A program made the position numbers and the translations under genes. Below, in pieces: positions 8,012 to 34,534 of a DNA stretch of 34,886 nt. Position 1 is the first letter of the stretch. Each line of letters starts with the position of its first letter. The DNA comes from a virus: IMG/VR virus record IMGVR_UViG_3300027749_000295, positions 1-34,886 of that record; one strand, written 5' to 3'. The notes below the pieces were generated by a model that made no database searches, was not told the origin of the DNA, and was given only the letters and a program-made list of their open reading frames with translations.

Positions 8012-8803
8012 TTAAAACAAAAGTCTTTCATTGGCCGCTTTTGCTATAATTGGGTTGCGAACAACATTGAGCCCAACCAAATCAAGAGATGATTTTCTTT
8101 CCACCCTAAATGCTATTCTGTAAACGCTACCAACTGATATAATTTCTTCAAGTATTACCTCTCTATAATTTTGCATACCAAAATCTATAATTTTTTTAAT
8201 AATTATATCTTCATATTCTTTTCTGTTTGTTTCACCTATCCCCCAAAAACAGTCTAAATGTTTTGCGGTAATCTTATTTAGTTTTTGAACGGCCAATTTT
8301 GGAAGGGTCACAAAAAGATACCCTTTGTTCATTAAAAGAAAGATGTGGGGGAAATATCTGCTCGGCATACCATAGGGGTCTAGGTCTATTATATCAAACT
8401 TGCATTTATTCCCGACAAGCCCATGTGACTCAATTATACTATCTCCGTGTTCAGCATATACATCTTGCATCTGCATTTTATTAATATACTCCACTCTTTT
8501 TTTGTCTATATCGTAACACAGAACCTCTCCATATTGTTGATAGAGTTTTGTAAGATTCCCCCACCCACAGTTTGTTTCTAAAATATAATTTTTATTGCTT
8601 TCGATGTATCGCTCGATTTGTTCCCATTTTTGTTTTGGGTGATGATGTTTTTCGCTATTATTGTTTTGTGATATTCTTCTGAATTTATGTTTTATGGCAC
8701 TTGTGGTTATATTTAACTTTTCAGCTATATCATCAAACTTCATCCCGTTGTTTCTATAAAGAACAACGGTAGCCTCCATTTCCTTGCTCCAAATTAAATT
8801 CAT
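8012..8803 (-). CDS. HTH-linked SAM-dependent methyltransferase
   Basis: The ATG at 8803 overlaps the HNH stop codon (ATGA) and gives 263 residues. The N-terminus (IWSKEMEATVVLYRNNG, then DDIAEKLNITTSAIKHKFRR) is a helix-turn-helix. The rest is a class I methyltransferase: ILETNCGWGNLTKLY as motif I, VLCYDIDKKRV as motif II and FDIIDLDPYG as motif IV. The DPYG form is seen in Trm1-type guanine-N2 tRNA methyltransferases, but a nucleic-acid N-methyltransferase acting on DNA is also possible, given the HTH. The gene is strikingly richer in A and T than its neighbours, which suggests recent acquisition. Confidence 0.7.
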   Translation of the reverse strand: MNLIWSKEMEATVVLYRNNGMKFDDIAEKLNITTSAIKHKFRRISQNNNSEKHHHPKQKWEQIERYIESNKNYILETNCGWGNLTKLYQQYGEVLCYDIDKKRVEYINKMQMQDVYAEHGDSIIESHGLVGNKCKFDIIDLDPYGMPSRYFPHIFLLMNKGYLFVTLPKLAVQKLNKITAKHLDCFWGIGETNRKEYEDIIIKKIIDFGMQNYREVILEEIISVGSVYRIAFRVERKSSLDLVGLNVVRNPIIAKAANERLLF

Positions 8804-9084
8804 CGCTTCACCATATAATCTTTTGCATAAGCCCACGCTGGGTTCATATGAATCTTGTGGTGGCAATCAAAGCACACCGCCAAGAAGAACTCTACCTCAT
8901 TGAGCCTGTCCCCAAATCTCCCCCGCCTGTGGTGAACTTGGCTGGCTACGCTTGAGCATACTTGGCAGAGGGGGTTCAGAGTTAAGAACTTTATCCTTAC
9001 TTCCTTATACACATCGTTCTGCAACTTCCGCTTTTTAGAGACTCGTCGTAGCGGGGTCTTGCGCTTTAAGGAGGAGCGTTTCAT
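8800..9084 (-). CDS. HNH endonuclease
   Basis: 94 residues from the ATG at 9084, preceded by a very basic N-terminus (KRSSLKRKTPLRRVSKKRK). The core has CQVC, then VHHRRGR as the first catalytic His pair, then CFDCHHKIH, giving a zinc-binding four-Cys HNH fold. A longer reading from further upstream lacks conserved sequence. Small HNH proteins beside terminase genes are common in cos phages and can be needed for terminase cutting. The gene lies between the two terminase subunits with ATGA coupling to the methyltransferase gene. Confidence 0.85.
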   Translation of the reverse strand: MKRSSLKRKTPLRRVSKKRKLQNDVYKEVRIKFLTLNPLCQVCSSVASQVHHRRGRFGDRLNEVEFFLAVCFDCHHKIHMNPAWAYAKDYMVKR

Positions 9085-11852: not shown

Positions 11853-12113
11853 TTACAAATAATACTCCGCAACGCTTTTCCCGCTATTCGTTTTCACGGT
11901 GCGCTTGTAGATTGGATGTCCCATCTTTTTCAGATCGCATATCCTACTTGCTAGGCGAAAGCATCTGAACCATTCCAACGCATCGAGAGCCGTGATCGCT
12001 CGCCCTGTTTTTAGGTGGGCTAGGATTCTGGCGTTCTGGTCGTGGCCTTCACTCTGCTTTGGGTGAGTGGTTCGGGTGAAAGGTAGCTCGTATTGCTCGG
12101 CAAGTAATATCAT
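11853..12113 (-). CDS. Helix-turn-helix protein, HTH_39-like, 86 aa
   Basis: The ATG at 12113 overlaps the upstream stop (ATGA); an earlier in-frame start is less likely. The core NARILAHLKTGRAITALDALEWFRCFRLASRICDLKKMGHPI matches the phage winged-helix pattern known as HTH_39: LxxG..IT..eAl..f....LaaRI.dLr..G..I. A short beta wing (KRTVKTNSGKSVAEYYL) follows. Such proteins are common in phage replication and recombination operons and often have unknown targets. Confidence 0.7.
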   Translation of the reverse strand: MILLAEQYELPFTRTTHPKQSEGHDQNARILAHLKTGRAITALDALEWFRCFRLASRICDLKKMGHPIYKRTVKTNSGKSVAEYYL

Positions 12114-12640
12114 TTGATGTTCCTTTTCTTTGCTCGCATAGCTGAGTGTCTGCATTTGGGGAACTCGATTAGATTCCTTCCTGTACCTCGTCTCGCTACG
12201 AATTTATTCTTTATCGCATGATAGACGCTTCCTCTTTCGCAACCCCAAGCCTTTGCAAGTTGAGCCGGAGTAGCCCCCGAATCAATCTGAGTTTTCCATA
12301 GCTCCCAGCGTTTCTTAACCACCTCATAAGAGCGGTTGCTTCTCACGGTTTGAAATGTAGGCAGTAGTTCCTTTGGAGTTTCGATGGGTATGTCATCCCC
12401 TTGGATATGATCTCTGATCATTTTGCGGGGTATTGTGAGACGAATGTTGGCCATTATAGAGGCTAGGTTATCAATCTGCCCTTTGTCGGAGTTCTCCTTT
12501 AGCTTACCGATTATCCCTGCAAGCTGGTTTATCTTGTGATCTTGCAATGTAAACTTATGGCTTTGCATGGCAAGCCTTTCCTCAATTTGCTTGAGCCTGT
12601 AAGCTAATGTACTTATTGCCGCGCTTTCCTCTGTTATCAT
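12110..12640 (-). CDS. Coiled-coil plus HTH protein, 176 aa
   Basis: The start is at 12640, where the ATG overlaps the stop of the initiator gene. The N-terminal 70 residues are a coiled coil (YRLKQIEERLAMQSHKFTLQD, INQLAGIIGKLKE). The C-terminus has a helix-turn-helix (SGATPAQLAKAWGCERGSVYHAIKNK) and a basic tail. Directly after a lambda O-like initiator one would expect a helicase loader (lambda P or DnaC type), but no Walker motif is visible. It may be an oligomeric regulator or an accessory replication factor. Confidence 0.55.
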   Translation of the reverse strand: MITEESAAISTLAYRLKQIEERLAMQSHKFTLQDHKINQLAGIIGKLKENSDKGQIDNLASIMANIRLTIPRKMIRDHIQGDDIPIETPKELLPTFQTVRSNRSYEVVKKRWELWKTQIDSGATPAQLAKAWGCERGSVYHAIKNKFVARRGTGRNLIEFPKCRHSAMRAKKRNIK

Positions 12641-13413
12641 GGACAACCCGCTTTCACCCAATCTTCTCTGCACTTAAAGCCCATTACCTTGTAGGTGGGC
12701 GGTGAGTAGCAACTATTCCGGTGGTTATCATTCATTGGTTTGTTTTCCTTTTTGGTTGTGGTTTGATTCCGTCTCTGACAATTTCGAGCGCAAGCTCTCC
12801 AATCCTTCACGGGGGTCTTGCCCCCAATCTTCCATCCGTTGCTTTCGTAGTAATCGAAAGCCGACTCCGCATCCGTTGCTCCCCATCCGATCTCCTTTGC
12901 ATATGCAGACCAATCAACGCGCGTGGGGCGCAAGCCCTCTCTCTCTTTCTTGTTGTTACTATTGCTCTCGCTCTGACTATAACTCTTACTCTTACTCTTA
13001 CTCTTATTCTGTACGATGGATGGTTCATCTATGGGCGATAGATGGTTCATAGATGGCTCATCTATGGTGCATCTATGGGTCATCCTTGAGGCATAACCTT
13101 CTGCCTTTTGGTTCATCTTCACAAGTCCTTTCTCTATACCAGAGTGATAGATAGCCCCATCTTTTCGGGTAAAAACACCAGCGGTTTCTAGTTCATCGAG
13201 TAGCTTTGTCGCATCCTCACCCACCATTCTGCCTATCTGTTCCGTGGTCGGCGTGATTCCGTTGATGACCAGCCGCCCCCCTTCATTGGCTTTGTAGGCT
13301 AGGCAGAGCAAATGAATCCATAGCCCTTTCGCACCAAGACTCACTAAGGCCAACTTCTCATTCGATAGCCATCGGTTCGGTTCAAAGGCAAACCAGAAAT
13401 TGTCCCGCTTCAT
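12637..13413 (-). CDS. Replication initiator (lambda O-like)
   Basis: 258 residues. The N-terminal winged-helix region (NFWFAFEPNRWLSNEKL, LGAKGLWIHLLCLAYKANEGG, then EQIGRMVGEDATKLLDELETAGVF) matches phage replication initiator/replisome organiser proteins. The C-terminal domain has AFDYYESNGWKIGGKTPVKDWRACARN, a pattern common to such initiators. Between them lies a low-complexity linker of Lys-Ser repeats. The gene itself carries six 11-bp iterons and a polypurine repeat, as in lambda, whose origin lies inside gene O. The expected partner is the host replicative helicase. Confidence 0.75.
   Translation of the reverse strand: MKRDNFWFAFEPNRWLSNEKLALVSLGAKGLWIHLLCLAYKANEGGRLVINGITPTTEQIGRMVGEDATKLLDELETAGVFTRKDGAIYHSGIEKGLVKMNQKAEGYASRMTHRCTIDEPSMNHLSPIDEPSIVQNKSKSKSKSYSQSESNSNNKKEREGLRPTRVDWSAYAKEIGWGATDAESAFDYYESNGWKIGGKTPVKDWRACARNCQRRNQTTTKKENKPMNDNHRNSCYSPPTYKVMGFKCREDWVKAGCP
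12983..13006. repeat. Hexanucleotide repeat (CTCTTA)x4, polypurine tract of the candidate origin
   Basis: Four perfect CTCTTA units, extended on both sides by imperfect units, give a strongly strand-biased tract that is purine-only or nearly so on the minus strand. It encodes the Lys-Ser repeat of the initiator linker. It lies about 12 bases from the iterons. In lambda an AT-rich, strand-asymmetric segment next to the iterons is where the duplex opens. Confidence 0.65.
13019..13084. repeat. Six tandem 11-bp iterons, candidate replication origin
   Basis: Six contiguous 11-base units on the plus strand: GATGGTTCATC, TATGGGCGATA, GATGGTTCATA, GATGGCTCATC, TATGGTGCATC and TATGGGTCATC (consensus KATGGKTCATM). 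The period is not a multiple of three, so it is not just a protein repeat; the protein shows only an 11-residue echo (IDEPS twice). The array lies inside the initiator gene between its two domains, as lambda iterons do inside gene O. Confidence 0.75.
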
Positions 13414-13616
13414 TTGCGCTTCTCCTTGTCTCGTTCCCGGTAGGTCTTGGCTCTGGCCAATAGCTCCTTCGTTACCTTGTGCGAATAGTCGAGGTGTGTT
13501 CTTACATCCTTGAACGCTTCCCGCTGGGCTGGGGTGAGGCTTGCAAACAGTTCCTTCATCCTGCTTGCTAGGTTTTTGTGGAGGTCGCCCACTAATGCCA
13601 ATCGTTTAACGCTCAT
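13410..13616 (-). CDS. Small helical protein, 68 aa
   Basis: A charged, helical protein (LHKNLASRMKELFASLTPAQREAFKDVRTHL, then a basic tail ending RERDKEKRK). Its end overlaps the start of the initiator gene by four bases, so translation is coupled. The central SLTPAQREAF pattern recalls short regulatory or scaffold helices but no family was recognised. It starts inside the end of the membrane-protein gene upstream. Confidence 0.55.
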   Translation of the reverse strand: MSVKRLALVGDLHKNLASRMKELFASLTPAQREAFKDVRTHLDYSHKVTKELLARAKTYRERDKEKRK

Positions 13617-13752
13617 CGTTCCACCACTTTCTTAGTGCATCCCAGCACAGGCCGAGCAAAAATAGCACCCCAAGAAAAACGCCGAATGAAAGCCCTATCA
13701 ATACCCCAAGCTCTACTAGCAACTTGGCGGTGGATAAAAGGAAATTTATCAT
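13606..13752 (-). CDS. 48-aa membrane protein
   Basis: The ATG at 13752 overlaps the stop of the DUF551-like gene (ATGA), which favours it over an in-frame upstream start. Residues 3-36 are hydrophobic (FLLSTAKLLVELGVLIGLSF, then GVFLGVLFLLGLCW), enough for one long or two short membrane helices. The cytoplasmic-looking tail is RKWWNDER. No known family; a small early membrane protein could influence host physiology or exclusion. Confidence 0.55.
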   Translation of the reverse strand: MINFLLSTAKLLVELGVLIGLSFGVFLGVLFLLGLCWDALRKWWNDER

Positions 13753-13922
13753 TTGGGTGGGAGCGGCCACGCCGCCCATTGAATAATTTTTGAAGCCACT
13801 TGCCAATCTCCAATATAGAAGTGCGGTTCAATATACCGCCCTCCCAATATTTCGCCGTCTCGATCAAGTAAGATTTTCGCATAGTTGTCCGGTCTTTCTT
13901 TTGTTGATTGCCATTGAATCAT
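13749..13922 (-). CDS. DUF551-like small protein, 57 aa
   Basis: From the ATG at 13922 the protein starts MIQWQSTKERPDNYAKILL and ends WAAWPLPPK. This is the DUF551 layout: Trp-x-Ser near the start, Pro-containing turn, beta-strands, and a Trp-x-PLP-P end. AAAGGTG stands about nine bases before this ATG. A longer in-frame start at 14027 exists but would overlap the upstream gene by 77 bases and adds only basic residues. DUF551 proteins are common in phage early regions; the function is unknown. Confidence 0.6.
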   Translation of the reverse strand: MIQWQSTKERPDNYAKILLDRDGEILGGRYIEPHFYIGDWQVASKIIQWAAWPLPPK

Positions 13923-13950
13923 TGTCCACTTCACCTTTGGAACTTGGACA

Positions 13951-14178
13951 TCAATCGACACTTGGTGCGAGCCTCCGTATAGCAAGCACCACTTCGTTGA
14001 GTGTTTCTTTTTGAACTTGATCTTCAATGCCGTCTGCTAATTGCTGAACAAGTTCCGCACAACGATTCCTCTCGTTAGCCTCTGCCAACCGCATACCCTC
14101 CCGCATTATTGCGGAAAGGTCGGGGAGCAGGCTCGCCCCTATTGATAATGTTTTGGGTTGCTCAGAAGGGTATTGCAT
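13951..14178 (-). CDS. Unknown small protein, 75 aa
   Basis: The ATG is preceded by GAGGAGGAT, the strongest Shine-Dalgarno in this block, which is itself part of the acidic C-terminal codons of the upstream gene (17-base overlap). The protein is helical and acidic (GMRLAEANERNRCAELVQQLADGIEDQVQKE) with no membrane segment. A helical MREGMRLA-x-x-N-x-RNRCAEL pattern also occurs in other small phage proteins. No function assigned. Confidence 0.6.
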   Translation of the reverse strand: MQYPSEQPKTLSIGASLLPDLSAIMREGMRLAEANERNRCAELVQQLADGIEDQVQKETLNEVVLAIRRLAPSVD

Positions 14179-14965
14179 CTTTTTTATCCTCCTCGGCTAG
14201 TATCTCTGCAATGATTTGGTTTCTGATTAGGTCGTTGGCGTATGGCTTTCCATCGGCGGCGGGTTTCAGTTCTTGCTTGGCCAGCCAATCTAAGTAGTCC
14301 AGCCCCTTGCCACTAGGGAACTTGGCAATCTCTCGTAGGCTTGAGCCTTTGTGCTTGCCAAACTTTAGAACCATGTCCCGCTTCTCGGTTGCTGGGGCTT
14401 GCTCACTTACCAACTGAGCCGTGATCTCGGCCACCTCTGCCTTTGTAATCTTGGCGGGAGGTGCTTCGTTCTTGTGGGTGTTGAGTGGTTCGTTATCAAA
14501 CCCTCCATGAGGAACTTCTTCCGCCGGCGTTGTGCTAAGATTGCGGTCAATCAATACCACGATGTGGGCAAAGGCAGAGCGGCAAGCCCTACTGATTGCT
14601 CGGGTCTGCACCATCGCCCTCCGTGCATAAACTGGACGCTTGCTCCACATATCCTCGTCATCGCCCAAGAACCCTTCGGCTTGGGAAATGACTTGGCCTG
14701 TGTCCATTCTTTTAACTACGCCTATGCACCTAAAGCCATCTTCAAGACGCTCAACATCTCGTGCGGAGGCTACGCATCCGTGAGCGATGGCGATTGATTG
14801 CCAGCCCTCGACTCGGACATATCTCTTTACTCCGATCTGTTGTGCCGTGGCGTTTACGATCTCCCTGCATACGCTGGCTACATCCGTAGCCTGTCGCATA
14901 TAGTTAAGCACTCCGTTGGAGTGGCCTAACCCTTGGTCATTCTTTACAATCATCTGTTCATTCAT
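14162..14965 (-). CDS. Putative single-strand annealing protein with ExoX-like C-terminal domain and SSB-like tail
   Basis: 267 residues. The N-terminal two thirds (RYVRVEGWQSIAIAHGC, VKRMDTGQVISQAEGFLG, then YARRAMVQTRAISRACRSAF) belong to a family of phage proteins placed with recombination genes, with a Gln-Thr-Arg-Ala-x-Ser-Arg-Ala motif like some Sak/Rad52-type annealing proteins. Residues around 198-228 (VLKFGKHKGSSLREIAKF, YLDWLAKQEL) resemble the ExoX-like C-terminal domain. The last residues, EEDKKDAIPF, copy the acidic D-x-I-P-F tip of bacterial SSB. An AAAGGAACAACC leader precedes the start. Confidence 0.6.
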   Translation of the reverse strand: MNEQMIVKNDQGLGHSNGVLNYMRQATDVASVCREIVNATAQQIGVKRYVRVEGWQSIAIAHGCVASARDVERLEDGFRCIGVVKRMDTGQVISQAEGFLGDDEDMWSKRPVYARRAMVQTRAISRACRSAFAHIVVLIDRNLSTTPAEEVPHGGFDNEPLNTHKNEAPPAKITKAEVAEITAQLVSEQAPATEKRDMVLKFGKHKGSSLREIAKFPSGKGLDYLDWLAKQELKPAADGKPYANDLIRNQIIAEILAEEDKKDAIPF

Positions 14966-32671: not shown

Positions 32672-32913
32672 CTTGCCATTTCTATTAGTGCCTTCTTAAT
32701 TACATATTCAATGACGGCCTCCGGGTCTTGCTTCAAGGCCAACATCCCCGCCTCGTATAATTCCTTCTTAGCCTTTTCGTCATAGGTAATATCGACATTT
32801 ACAAACTTAGTTTTGCAGGGGCGAGATTTCCCAAAAGTAATTATACCAAGACCCTTGGTATGCTCTCCCTTTTTAGCTGTCCTACAACCAATTATTTGCT
32901 TTGTGCTTTTCAT
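32659..32913 (-). CDS. Small basic protein, 84 aa
   Basis: From the ATG at 32913, inside the end of the glycosyltransferase gene. The Lys-rich N-terminus (KSTKQIIGCRTAKKGEHTK) is followed by FVNVDITYDEKAKKELYEAG and a helical end (DPEAVIEYVIKKALIEMARCKK). No known domain. It lies within the glycan cassette and may be unrelated in function, or a small regulator of it. An earlier in-frame start adds seven residues. Confidence 0.5.
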   Translation of the reverse strand: MKSTKQIIGCRTAKKGEHTKGLGIITFGKSRPCKTKFVNVDITYDEKAKKELYEAGMLALKQDPEAVIEYVIKKALIEMARCKK

Positions 32914-34534
32914 AGATCGCCTTGCCTTTCTCATAGAACTCTGGCTTGTTGTGGTTTTTTAGTTGCTCGTCTGGGTTGCCCCCTGTGAACATAGGATTCT
33001 CGTGTTTGAATTGAACATGTCGAGCCTCAACTACCACTTGATTTAAATAGGCAAGCTCTGTGAATTCGTTATCGGAATATAAACCATCGCTCTCTTGATA
33101 GTCGGGGTGAAACATGTGACCCTGCTTTTTTAGCCTATCTTTCGTGAGAATCGCCATACAGAGGAGTTTGTCGGTTCTCAGCCCATCTGATACTGCCAAT
33201 ACCTTCTCGGCCTTGCTGTCCCCAATAGCGTTCGAAATTAGGGCATCCCAATGGCGGGGTGGTGCCCAATCATCCGACATTTGAATAATGATGTCCCCCT
33301 TGGCTATTTTTGCCCCTGCGTTCCAGGCATTGACGATGCCACCGGGGTTGCATCGAATCCCTTGGTGAGGGGTGTAGTCGGTCTTTTCGTCTGCATCCAC
33401 CATGAATAGCCATTCAATTTCAAGGGGTTTCTCGGCCAAGCACAACCATTGCCATCTTCTCTGCCAAGCGATCTGCGGTCTGCCCTTAGTAGCGTGAATC
33501 ACGCTTATCTTTGGGGCTGGTTTCATCTTCTTAATCTTCTCAACCTCCACGCTTTCGCCAACACAAACAGAGGCGGTTTCAAATAGATCGAGGGCTTGCC
33601 AGTTGTAGATCGCTTCAACTTGATTCCAATAATGAGCTTTTGGCCTGTGCAGAGTCATGCAACTTCGGATTGCTCCATATGCCTTATGCCAACTAGCCTT
33701 CCCCGAGTAGTGATTTGCTATATAAAAATACGCCTCTCTGCGGTCTGGTTGGAGAGCCACGGCTTGTCCTAGCCACGCCAGCCTGTCGTTATCCCCCACA
33801 ATCCTCCCCAGATTGCAAAGCACATCATATCGAAGCGTGTCCTCTAGCTCTGGAAAGGCCAAGGCTCTCATGCTGGAATCAATGCACTTCTCAATCTGGT
33901 TTGATAGAAAGTATTCTTGGGCTTGGTAGTATAGAGAATTGGGAGCAGTTGAAAGGGTGTCGGCTAAGATGTTAAAGTTCCTTTCAGCACTTTTGGGCTT
34001 GTACCCATCGGGCTTGTGGATTCTAAATATCTTGTCTGTCGCTATGGTCTTGTTTGACTCTTTAGTGACAAGCATTTCGTGAACTCGATTCTTCCAAACA
34101 CAAGTGCCTTTCTTGCTTATCTCTTCTCGGAGGGGCATGAGTCCGGCGTTGTCGACATTGTACTTTAAAGCCACTAGGTGAGCGTCTTTCTCTATGGCTA
34201 GGGCAATAGCTTCCTCTGCCACCTTCTCGCCGTCATCAGCCATTACATCGTCAGCGTCCACCCATAAAGCCCATTCACACTCACAAGCCTCTAGCGCAGT
34301 ATTTCGAGCCGTTGCAAAATCATCTATATGCTCCCAATCAGTTCTTTTGTTCTGGTAATGAACGATTCTAGCACCGAGAGAAAGTGCGATCTCCTCTGTC
34401 TTGTCGGGCGTAGCTGACCCCCTAGAAATACATACAACAACTTCTTTTGAGATGGGTTTAAATGATTCAATGCAACGCTTGATGTATGCTTCTTCATTTC
34501 CAGCTATTAGATAAACAGAAAGAGGATATTTCAT
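32882..34534 (-). CDS. Two-domain glycosyltransferase (GT2 - TPR-like - GT2)
   Basis: 550 residues in three parts. Residues 1-170 are a GT2 domain: SVYLIAGNEEAYIKRCIESF, then WALWVDADDVM with the D-x-D motif. About 190-335 is helical and TPR-like (YYQAQEYFLSNQIEKCIDSS, then AYFYIANHYSGKASWHKAYGA). Residues 345-550 form a second GT-A domain: ISVIHATKGRPQIAWQRR, VNAWNAGAKIAKGDIIIQMSDDWAPP and a conserved-looking HEN-x-MF tail. Two catalytic domains suggest that it makes two linkages. It opens the cassette after a 65-base AT-rich gap. Confidence 0.8.
   Translation of the reverse strand: MKYPLSVYLIAGNEEAYIKRCIESFKPISKEVVVCISRGSATPDKTEEIALSLGARIVHYQNKRTDWEHIDDFATARNTALEACECEWALWVDADDVMADDGEKVAEEAIALAIEKDAHLVALKYNVDNAGLMPLREEISKKGTCVWKNRVHEMLVTKESNKTIATDKIFRIHKPDGYKPKSAERNFNILADTLSTAPNSLYYQAQEYFLSNQIEKCIDSSMRALAFPELEDTLRYDVLCNLGRIVGDNDRLAWLGQAVALQPDRREAYFYIANHYSGKASWHKAYGAIRSCMTLHRPKAHYWNQVEAIYNWQALDLFETASVCVGESVEVEKIKKMKPAPKISVIHATKGRPQIAWQRRWQWLCLAEKPLEIEWLFMVDADEKTDYTPHQGIRCNPGGIVNAWNAGAKIAKGDIIIQMSDDWAPPRHWDALISNAIGDSKAEKVLAVSDGLRTDKLLCMAILTKDRLKKQGHMFHPDYQESDGLYSDNEFTELAYLNQVVVEARHVQFKHENPMFTGGNPDEQLKNHNKPEFYEKGKAIYEKHKANNWL

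Follow-up and report, generated by a model that had tools for sequence, protein, structure and literature searches.

The reading frame at positions 12637-13413 of a 34,886-bp IMG/VR virus record (the whole of this record is called the window here) probably encodes the replication initiator of the phage and contains the phage origin of replication as well, a reading to which we give a probability of roughly 85%. The origin would be of the theta type and embedded in the gene, with iterons bound by the N-terminal domain of the initiator itself, a neighboring tract that is melted, and a C-terminal domain that recruits the helicase. To our knowledge, the replication origins of most uncultured phages have not been identified. 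A linker test that preserves the protein pointed to a candidate origin in roughly half of the 166 distinct initiators analysed, and because the same layout is found in many phages, such origins could be read straight from the sequence. The features of the window gene are collected in Table 1.

Table 1. Features of the putative initiator gene and its embedded candidate origin (window coordinates).
Feature	Position	Strand	Basis
Initiator gene (replisome-organiser type), 258 aa	12637..13413	minus	Reading frame, homologues and fold
N-terminal winged-helix DNA-binding domain (predicted), codons 1-109	13087..13413	minus	AlphaFold2 and weak Phage_rep_org_N similarity
Iteron array, period 11, core CATMKATGNNC	13012..13088	minus	TRF and unit matching
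Purine-rich 6-bp tract, (AGTAAG)n on the coding strand; candidate unwinding element	12956..13010	minus	TRF, composition and stability
Short GGGC-TTGC-GCCC hairpin where the tract meets the C-domain	12926..12937	minus	Weak here, with longer stems in many relatives; census enrichment at this position
C-terminal domain RPxRxDW...FDYYESNGWKVGGKAPVKDW, codons 162-218	12760..12930	minus	AlphaFold2; almost unchanged in relatives whose N-domains are unrelated

The Putative Initiator and Its Domains

The product is probably an initiator, judging from its relatives and its predicted fold; no gathering-level match was found in Pfam or NCBIfam. The Phage_rep_org_N models of both collections, PF09681 (E = 0.032, 14.7 bits, cut-off 23.3 bits) and TIGR01714 (E = 0.052, 13.7 bits, cut-off 49.8 bits), score below their curated thresholds. 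An AlphaFold2 model with 19 relatives as input (mean pLDDT 64.6) predicts an N-terminal domain of helices 26-42, 57-64 and 69-78, strands 82-84 and 87-89 and a helix 91-117, and a C-terminal domain of helices 165-174, 179-191 and 205-218. Residues 111-160 are predicted to be disordered (pLDDT below 50) and correspond to the codons of the array and the tract, in agreement with the first-pass annotation, which had placed the repeats in the linker between two domains. Compared with viral models by Foldseek, the whole model matches phage proteins described as Lin1244/Lin1753-like, DUF1376, "replication initiator" and "replisome organizer" (best E = 9e-9), a fold-level likeness to the DUF1376, Lin1244/Lin1753-like (DUF4373) and Phage_rep_org_N phage proteins that extends over the entire initiator. 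The PDB matches from Foldseek were all generic winged-helix regulators with E values of 0.001 or higher, and a search of solved structures with the family profile gave no match.

The C-terminal domain is held in common with Vibrio phage DUF4373 proteins, and in cultured phages that share it the gene is annotated as replication initiation protein or DUF4373. Several initiators with this domain adjoin a gene for a DnaC-like loader, a "replication protein P" or a DnaB-like helicase, and the domain is presumed to recruit a helicase or its loader. None of the window proteins scanned could be recognised as a helicase, loader or primase, and host factors must therefore be assumed.

Three other genes of the window, all on the minus strand, deserve a brief description. 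The 267-aa protein encoded at 14162-14965, near the origin region, strongly matches phrog_19042 (unknown function) and has a sub-threshold ExoX-like C-terminal segment, which makes it a candidate recombination protein. A low-GC (36%) gene at 8012-8866, within which the 36 bp of lowest stability in the whole window lie (around 8180), shows a sub-threshold sigma-70 region 4-like HTH and a borderline match to tRNA N2,N2-dimethylguanosine methyltransferase. The 550-aa protein encoded at 32882-34534 has glycosyltransferase-like PHROG matches in its N-terminal (phrog_13126) and C-terminal (phrog_14945) parts.

Iteron Array and Selection on the DNA

The first-pass annotation had described six contiguous 11-bp iterons at 13019-13084, and TRF finds the same array, giving 5.9 copies of period 11 for 13020-13084 and a period of 22 for 13019-13084. 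In the better register, that of the minus-strand core in Table 1, the units within 13023-13077 score 11, 11, 11, 10 and 11 of 11, and those at the edges are degenerate (9/11 at 13078-13088, 8/11 at 13012-13022), so that the array itself stands and its units are better counted as five strong and two weak. Each 8-bp core, present as CATAGATG or its reverse complement CATCTATG, is a near-palindrome in either orientation. Nowhere else in the window does identity reach 33/44 or more at any lag between 8 and 30, a level attained by none of 100 Markov-resampled windows (mean maximum 25.4), and 11 of the 13 occurrences of the pattern GATGNNCCATMKATG in the window (up to 2 mismatches; 2.2 expected) fall inside the array. 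It occupies approximately codons 110-132, in the linker; the gene carries tandem iterons within the initiator coding sequence, the mark of embedded iteron origins of the lambda, Tuc2009 and SPP1 design.

When the protein was held fixed and the codons were resampled, the lag-11 identity of the window gene (33/44) exceeded all 500 synonymous nulls (mean 24.1, maximum 32; p = 0.002), and it remained significant in a stricter omnibus test over all non-triplet lags (p = 0.030). A lag-11 excess located in the linker was obtained for 23 of 25 sequences, the window included (p from 0.002 to 0.022), the weak cases being L018, with a shortened array (p = 0.056), and L039 (p = 0.17). These results support the view that selection acts on the DNA and not on the protein, as had been argued earlier from the 11-bp period being out of phase with the codons. 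Loss of the repeat in related phages, which had been named at that time as refuting evidence, is rare, as nearly all of them keep an out-of-frame 11-bp array although the unit itself has changed.

The Adjoining Purine-Rich Tract

The tract, approximately codons 136-152, contains the (CTCTTA)4 repeat at exactly the positions first given for it, 12983-13006. Purines make up 76% of its coding strand (99.4th percentile) and its AT content is 65%, and the 36 bp of lowest stability in the region 12000-14000 begin at 12977, beside the array, so that the window has the easily melted, AT-rich segment adjoining the iterons that is typical of embedded origins. The same bias is found over 39 arrays, in which the DNA between the array and the C-terminal domain is richer in purine (0.68 vs 0.56 in the N-terminal domain, p = 3e-10) and in AT (0.68 vs 0.59, p = 6e-6). 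The GC skew, which the first-pass annotation had suggested as a check, shows no turn at 13 kb and lends no support to an origin there.

The length of the tract varies among relatives. L023 has about 12 AATAAC units (encoding poly-Asn) and L014 about 4, indicating that the 6-bp tract expands like a microsatellite and that its length is therefore loosely constrained. Different iterons in L076, L100, L106, L116, L130, L179, L254 and Tuc2009 rep2009 (L258) are followed by almost the same 5-bp purine tract (AGGTTAGGTAAGGATAG or close to it), and its recurrence in different phages suggests a shared sequence that may be recognised as a single strand.

Relatives and the Exchange of Cassettes

Relatives over the full protein have the C-terminal domain in common and N-terminal domains of several types, each type accompanied by its own 11-bp unit: CATMKATGNNC in the window group, CAAGATGCTCC in L005, GATGTCCAGNN/GTCACGCCGAT in L026/L035, GTAACGCAAAT in L046 and GAAACGCAAAT in L050. 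The tract also differs by group, being AGTAAG or AATAAC (6 bp) in that of the window and AGAAGCT or AGAGGTT (7 bp) in the others. The exchange is most easily seen in L018 and L046, which share 99% of the residues and 94% of the bases of the C-terminal domain vs 30% of the residues of the N-terminal domain and 39% of the bases of the linker. The pairs L012/L029, L013/L028 and L019/L025 resemble this swap, and by inspection of the alignment the shared DNA of swapped pairs begins at the end of the tract. That the DNA-binding domain and the iterons travel together is an old idea from lambda hybrids, and natural pairs such as L018/L046 make it testable.

Among 45 distinct sequences, the distance between iterons tracks that between N-terminal domains (partial Mantel r = 0.82, p = 0.0005) vs 0.07 (p = 0.07) for the C-terminal domain. 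This co-variation supports, although it does not prove, co-evolution of the iterons with the N-terminal domain, and linkage contributes to the correlation because the two are adjacent in the gene. It likewise supports iterons that would be specific for the DNA-binding domain of their own initiator.

Census Across Phages and the Boundary Hairpin

To extend the comparison, initiators were collected by the C-terminal domain alone from viral contigs and bacterial-genome contigs, many presumably prophages, of several bacterial phyla. A significant non-triplet period was found at p < 0.05 in 86 of 166 distinct linkers vs 9 of 179 control windows taken from neighboring reading frames, and at p ≤ 0.005 in 39 of 166 vs 1 of 179; about half of the linkers are not significant, and the counts are partly non-independent, as a few of the 166 are closely related (e.g., L092/L093/L096). 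Lag 11 is most often the best one (31 cases); next come 10 (21 cases, mostly 5-bp purine tracts), 22 and 23. Examples of the iterons are GTCCCGATGTT (L073), TATCCAAAGGG (L079), TGTCAACCATA (L130) and, in a Verrucomicrobia genome bin, AACCCAGATAA (L219), and an 11-bp array of GGAGNNATTCC is present in the cultured Vibrio phage 1.259.O (L083).

The hairpin of the window is not significant against the null when taken alone (p = 0.12 and p = 0.29), and the result is an enrichment across relatives. Perfect hairpins with a stem of at least 7 bp occur at the tract/C-domain junction in 35 of 163 relatives vs 10 of 250 controls (Fisher 5e-8), and hairpins exceed the synonymous null at p < 0.05 in 29 of 163 vs 11 of 250. 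Their positions are concentrated about 77 nt ahead of the FDYYESNGW codons; the iteron region holds another maximum, and hairpins are fewer in the stretch that separates the two. The stems of the junction hairpins (L058-L256) differ from one another, e.g., GAAAAGCGGAAGCCGCTTTTC (L249), AAACCGCCAAGCGGTTT (L230) and AGGACGCTAAAGCGTCCT (L096), and the hairpin could be an entry signal for helicase or primase, a stop to unwinding or an element of the mRNA. We suggest tentatively, and with more doubt than confidence, that these phages represent a very widespread and largely unannotated class of origin: a coding cassette of three parts (iterons of 11 bp, or one helical turn; a purine tract of short period; and a hairpin at the boundary) would lie between exchangeable DNA-binding and constant recruitment domains, the DNA-binding domain, iterons and tract would recombine as a unit at the hairpin, and the hairpin, fixed in place with differing stems, would function as a signal, recognised as a single strand, at which helicase or primase enters.

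Proposed Mode of Working and Alternative Explanations

By analogy with lambda, SPP1 and the lactococcal phages (PMC7466680; PMC5499656; PMC8965321), from which we infer iteron binding, tract melting, helicase loading and origin activity, the N-terminal winged helix would bind the 11-bp iterons of its own gene, and with a spacing of 11 bp, nearly a full turn of the helix, initiator molecules bound in succession would line up along a single face of the DNA. The resulting nucleoprotein complex would put strain on the neighboring purine/AT-rich tract until it melts; the C-terminal domain would then deliver the replicative helicase of the host, or the loader of that helicase, to the unwound DNA, where theta replication would start.

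The array could instead be an intragenic operator through which the winged-helix protein represses or times its own transcription, the true origin being elsewhere, and the fold of the N-terminal domain is indeed common among transcription regulators, with several HTH genes lying around the initiator gene. We regard this explanation as unlikely, since the array is situated in the middle of the gene and not at a promoter, an easily melted purine tract follows it in relatives, its anatomy equals that of the Tuc2009 origin, and the window holds no second comparable array. Iteron arrays are also known to serve partition proteins (example in PMC6669507), and one may imagine a partition site, or a copy-number or incompatibility site, of an extrachromosomal prophage in place of a replication origin; the window proteins scanned included no recognisable product of a partition gene, however, and the array co-varies with the DNA-binding domain of the initiator itself, which leaves this explanation very improbable.

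Repeats may also arise without any function in the DNA, simply because a disordered linker is repetitive or prone to slippage, and the microsatellite-like 6-bp tract of L023 and L014 would fit such an origin. The 11-bp units, however, are out of frame and rise above nulls that preserve the protein, so that a microsatellite or protein-repeat origin is rejected for the array and still possible for the length of the tract. Moreover, the units have diverged and are still in register. In L012 the core is CATCTATG, the reverse complement of the forward core CATAGATG of L013, so that the motif is kept at the cost of altered residues, and L018 and its kin are shorter by exactly 11 residues, i.e., 33 bp or three units, the smallest change by which reading frame and iteron phase are preserved together. 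For the array as a whole we consider a slippage origin very unlikely, and an embedded origin of replication is the reading retained here.

Comparison With Known Systems

Phage origins located within the gene of their own initiator are known from several phages. In SPP1, the gene of the replisome organiser G38P has been shown to carry its own origin (oriL), and an origin within the replisome organiser gene ORF20 of 80alpha has been proposed (PMC5499656); the comparison of the window with both concerns the layout. The first-pass annotation had proposed a lambda-like origin, and as a mode of working this comparison is supported. Lambda O, like P22 gene 18, is composed of an N-terminal DNA-binding part and a C-terminal recruitment part, and ori-lambda has the same order of elements as the window, namely iterons, a purine/AT-rich segment and an inverted repeat (GTCAGAG-14-CTCTGAC, 7 bp with a 14-nt loop, at the equivalent place; p = 0.05), all inside the gene. 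The iterons of lambda, however, are 18 bp long and spaced 20-24 bp apart, or about two helical turns, whereas the units of the window are 11 bp long and contiguous, about one turn. Homology to lambda O was rejected (hhalign probability 0.1%), in line with the earlier remark that no resemblance to O beyond the winged-helix type is visible in the initiator, and so was membership of the lambda O family, given that neither homology, nor 18-bp two-turn iterons, nor a P-type loader among the scanned window proteins was recognised.

Applied to known origins, the periodicity test detected lambda O (p = 0.020, lags 20 and 23) and P22 gene 18 (p = 0.047). TP901-1 ORF13, a known embedded origin and the sister case of Tuc2009, failed as a positive control (p = 0.44), and the test therefore misses some real origins.

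The closest characterised layout is not that of lambda but that of rep2009 (ORF16) of Lactococcus phage Tuc2009, whose origin is reported to have been established experimentally (PMC8965321). Its record carries the annotation "contains origin of replication," and in the corresponding place of the initiator linker, four in-register 11-bp units (CAACCAAGTGT-CAACCATTCCG-CAACCAAATGA-CAACCAAATGT) are followed by a 5-bp AGGATAGGATAG purine tract, i.e., iterons and then a short-period purine-rich tract as in the window. The two differ in the iteron sequence and in the C-terminal domain, which is annotated as DnaD-like in Tuc2009 and is not of the FDYYESNGW type, and neither Tuc2009 nor TP901-1 has a hairpin at the boundary. 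In the open-access literature searched we found no description of a general 11-bp rule, of cassette swapping or of the tract/C-domain hairpin. The kind of origin is already known, as it works like lambda ori and is most like that of Tuc2009; the apparent novelty lies in a regularity shared by many phages, in which the period is kept, the sequence is changed and the cassette is exchanged.
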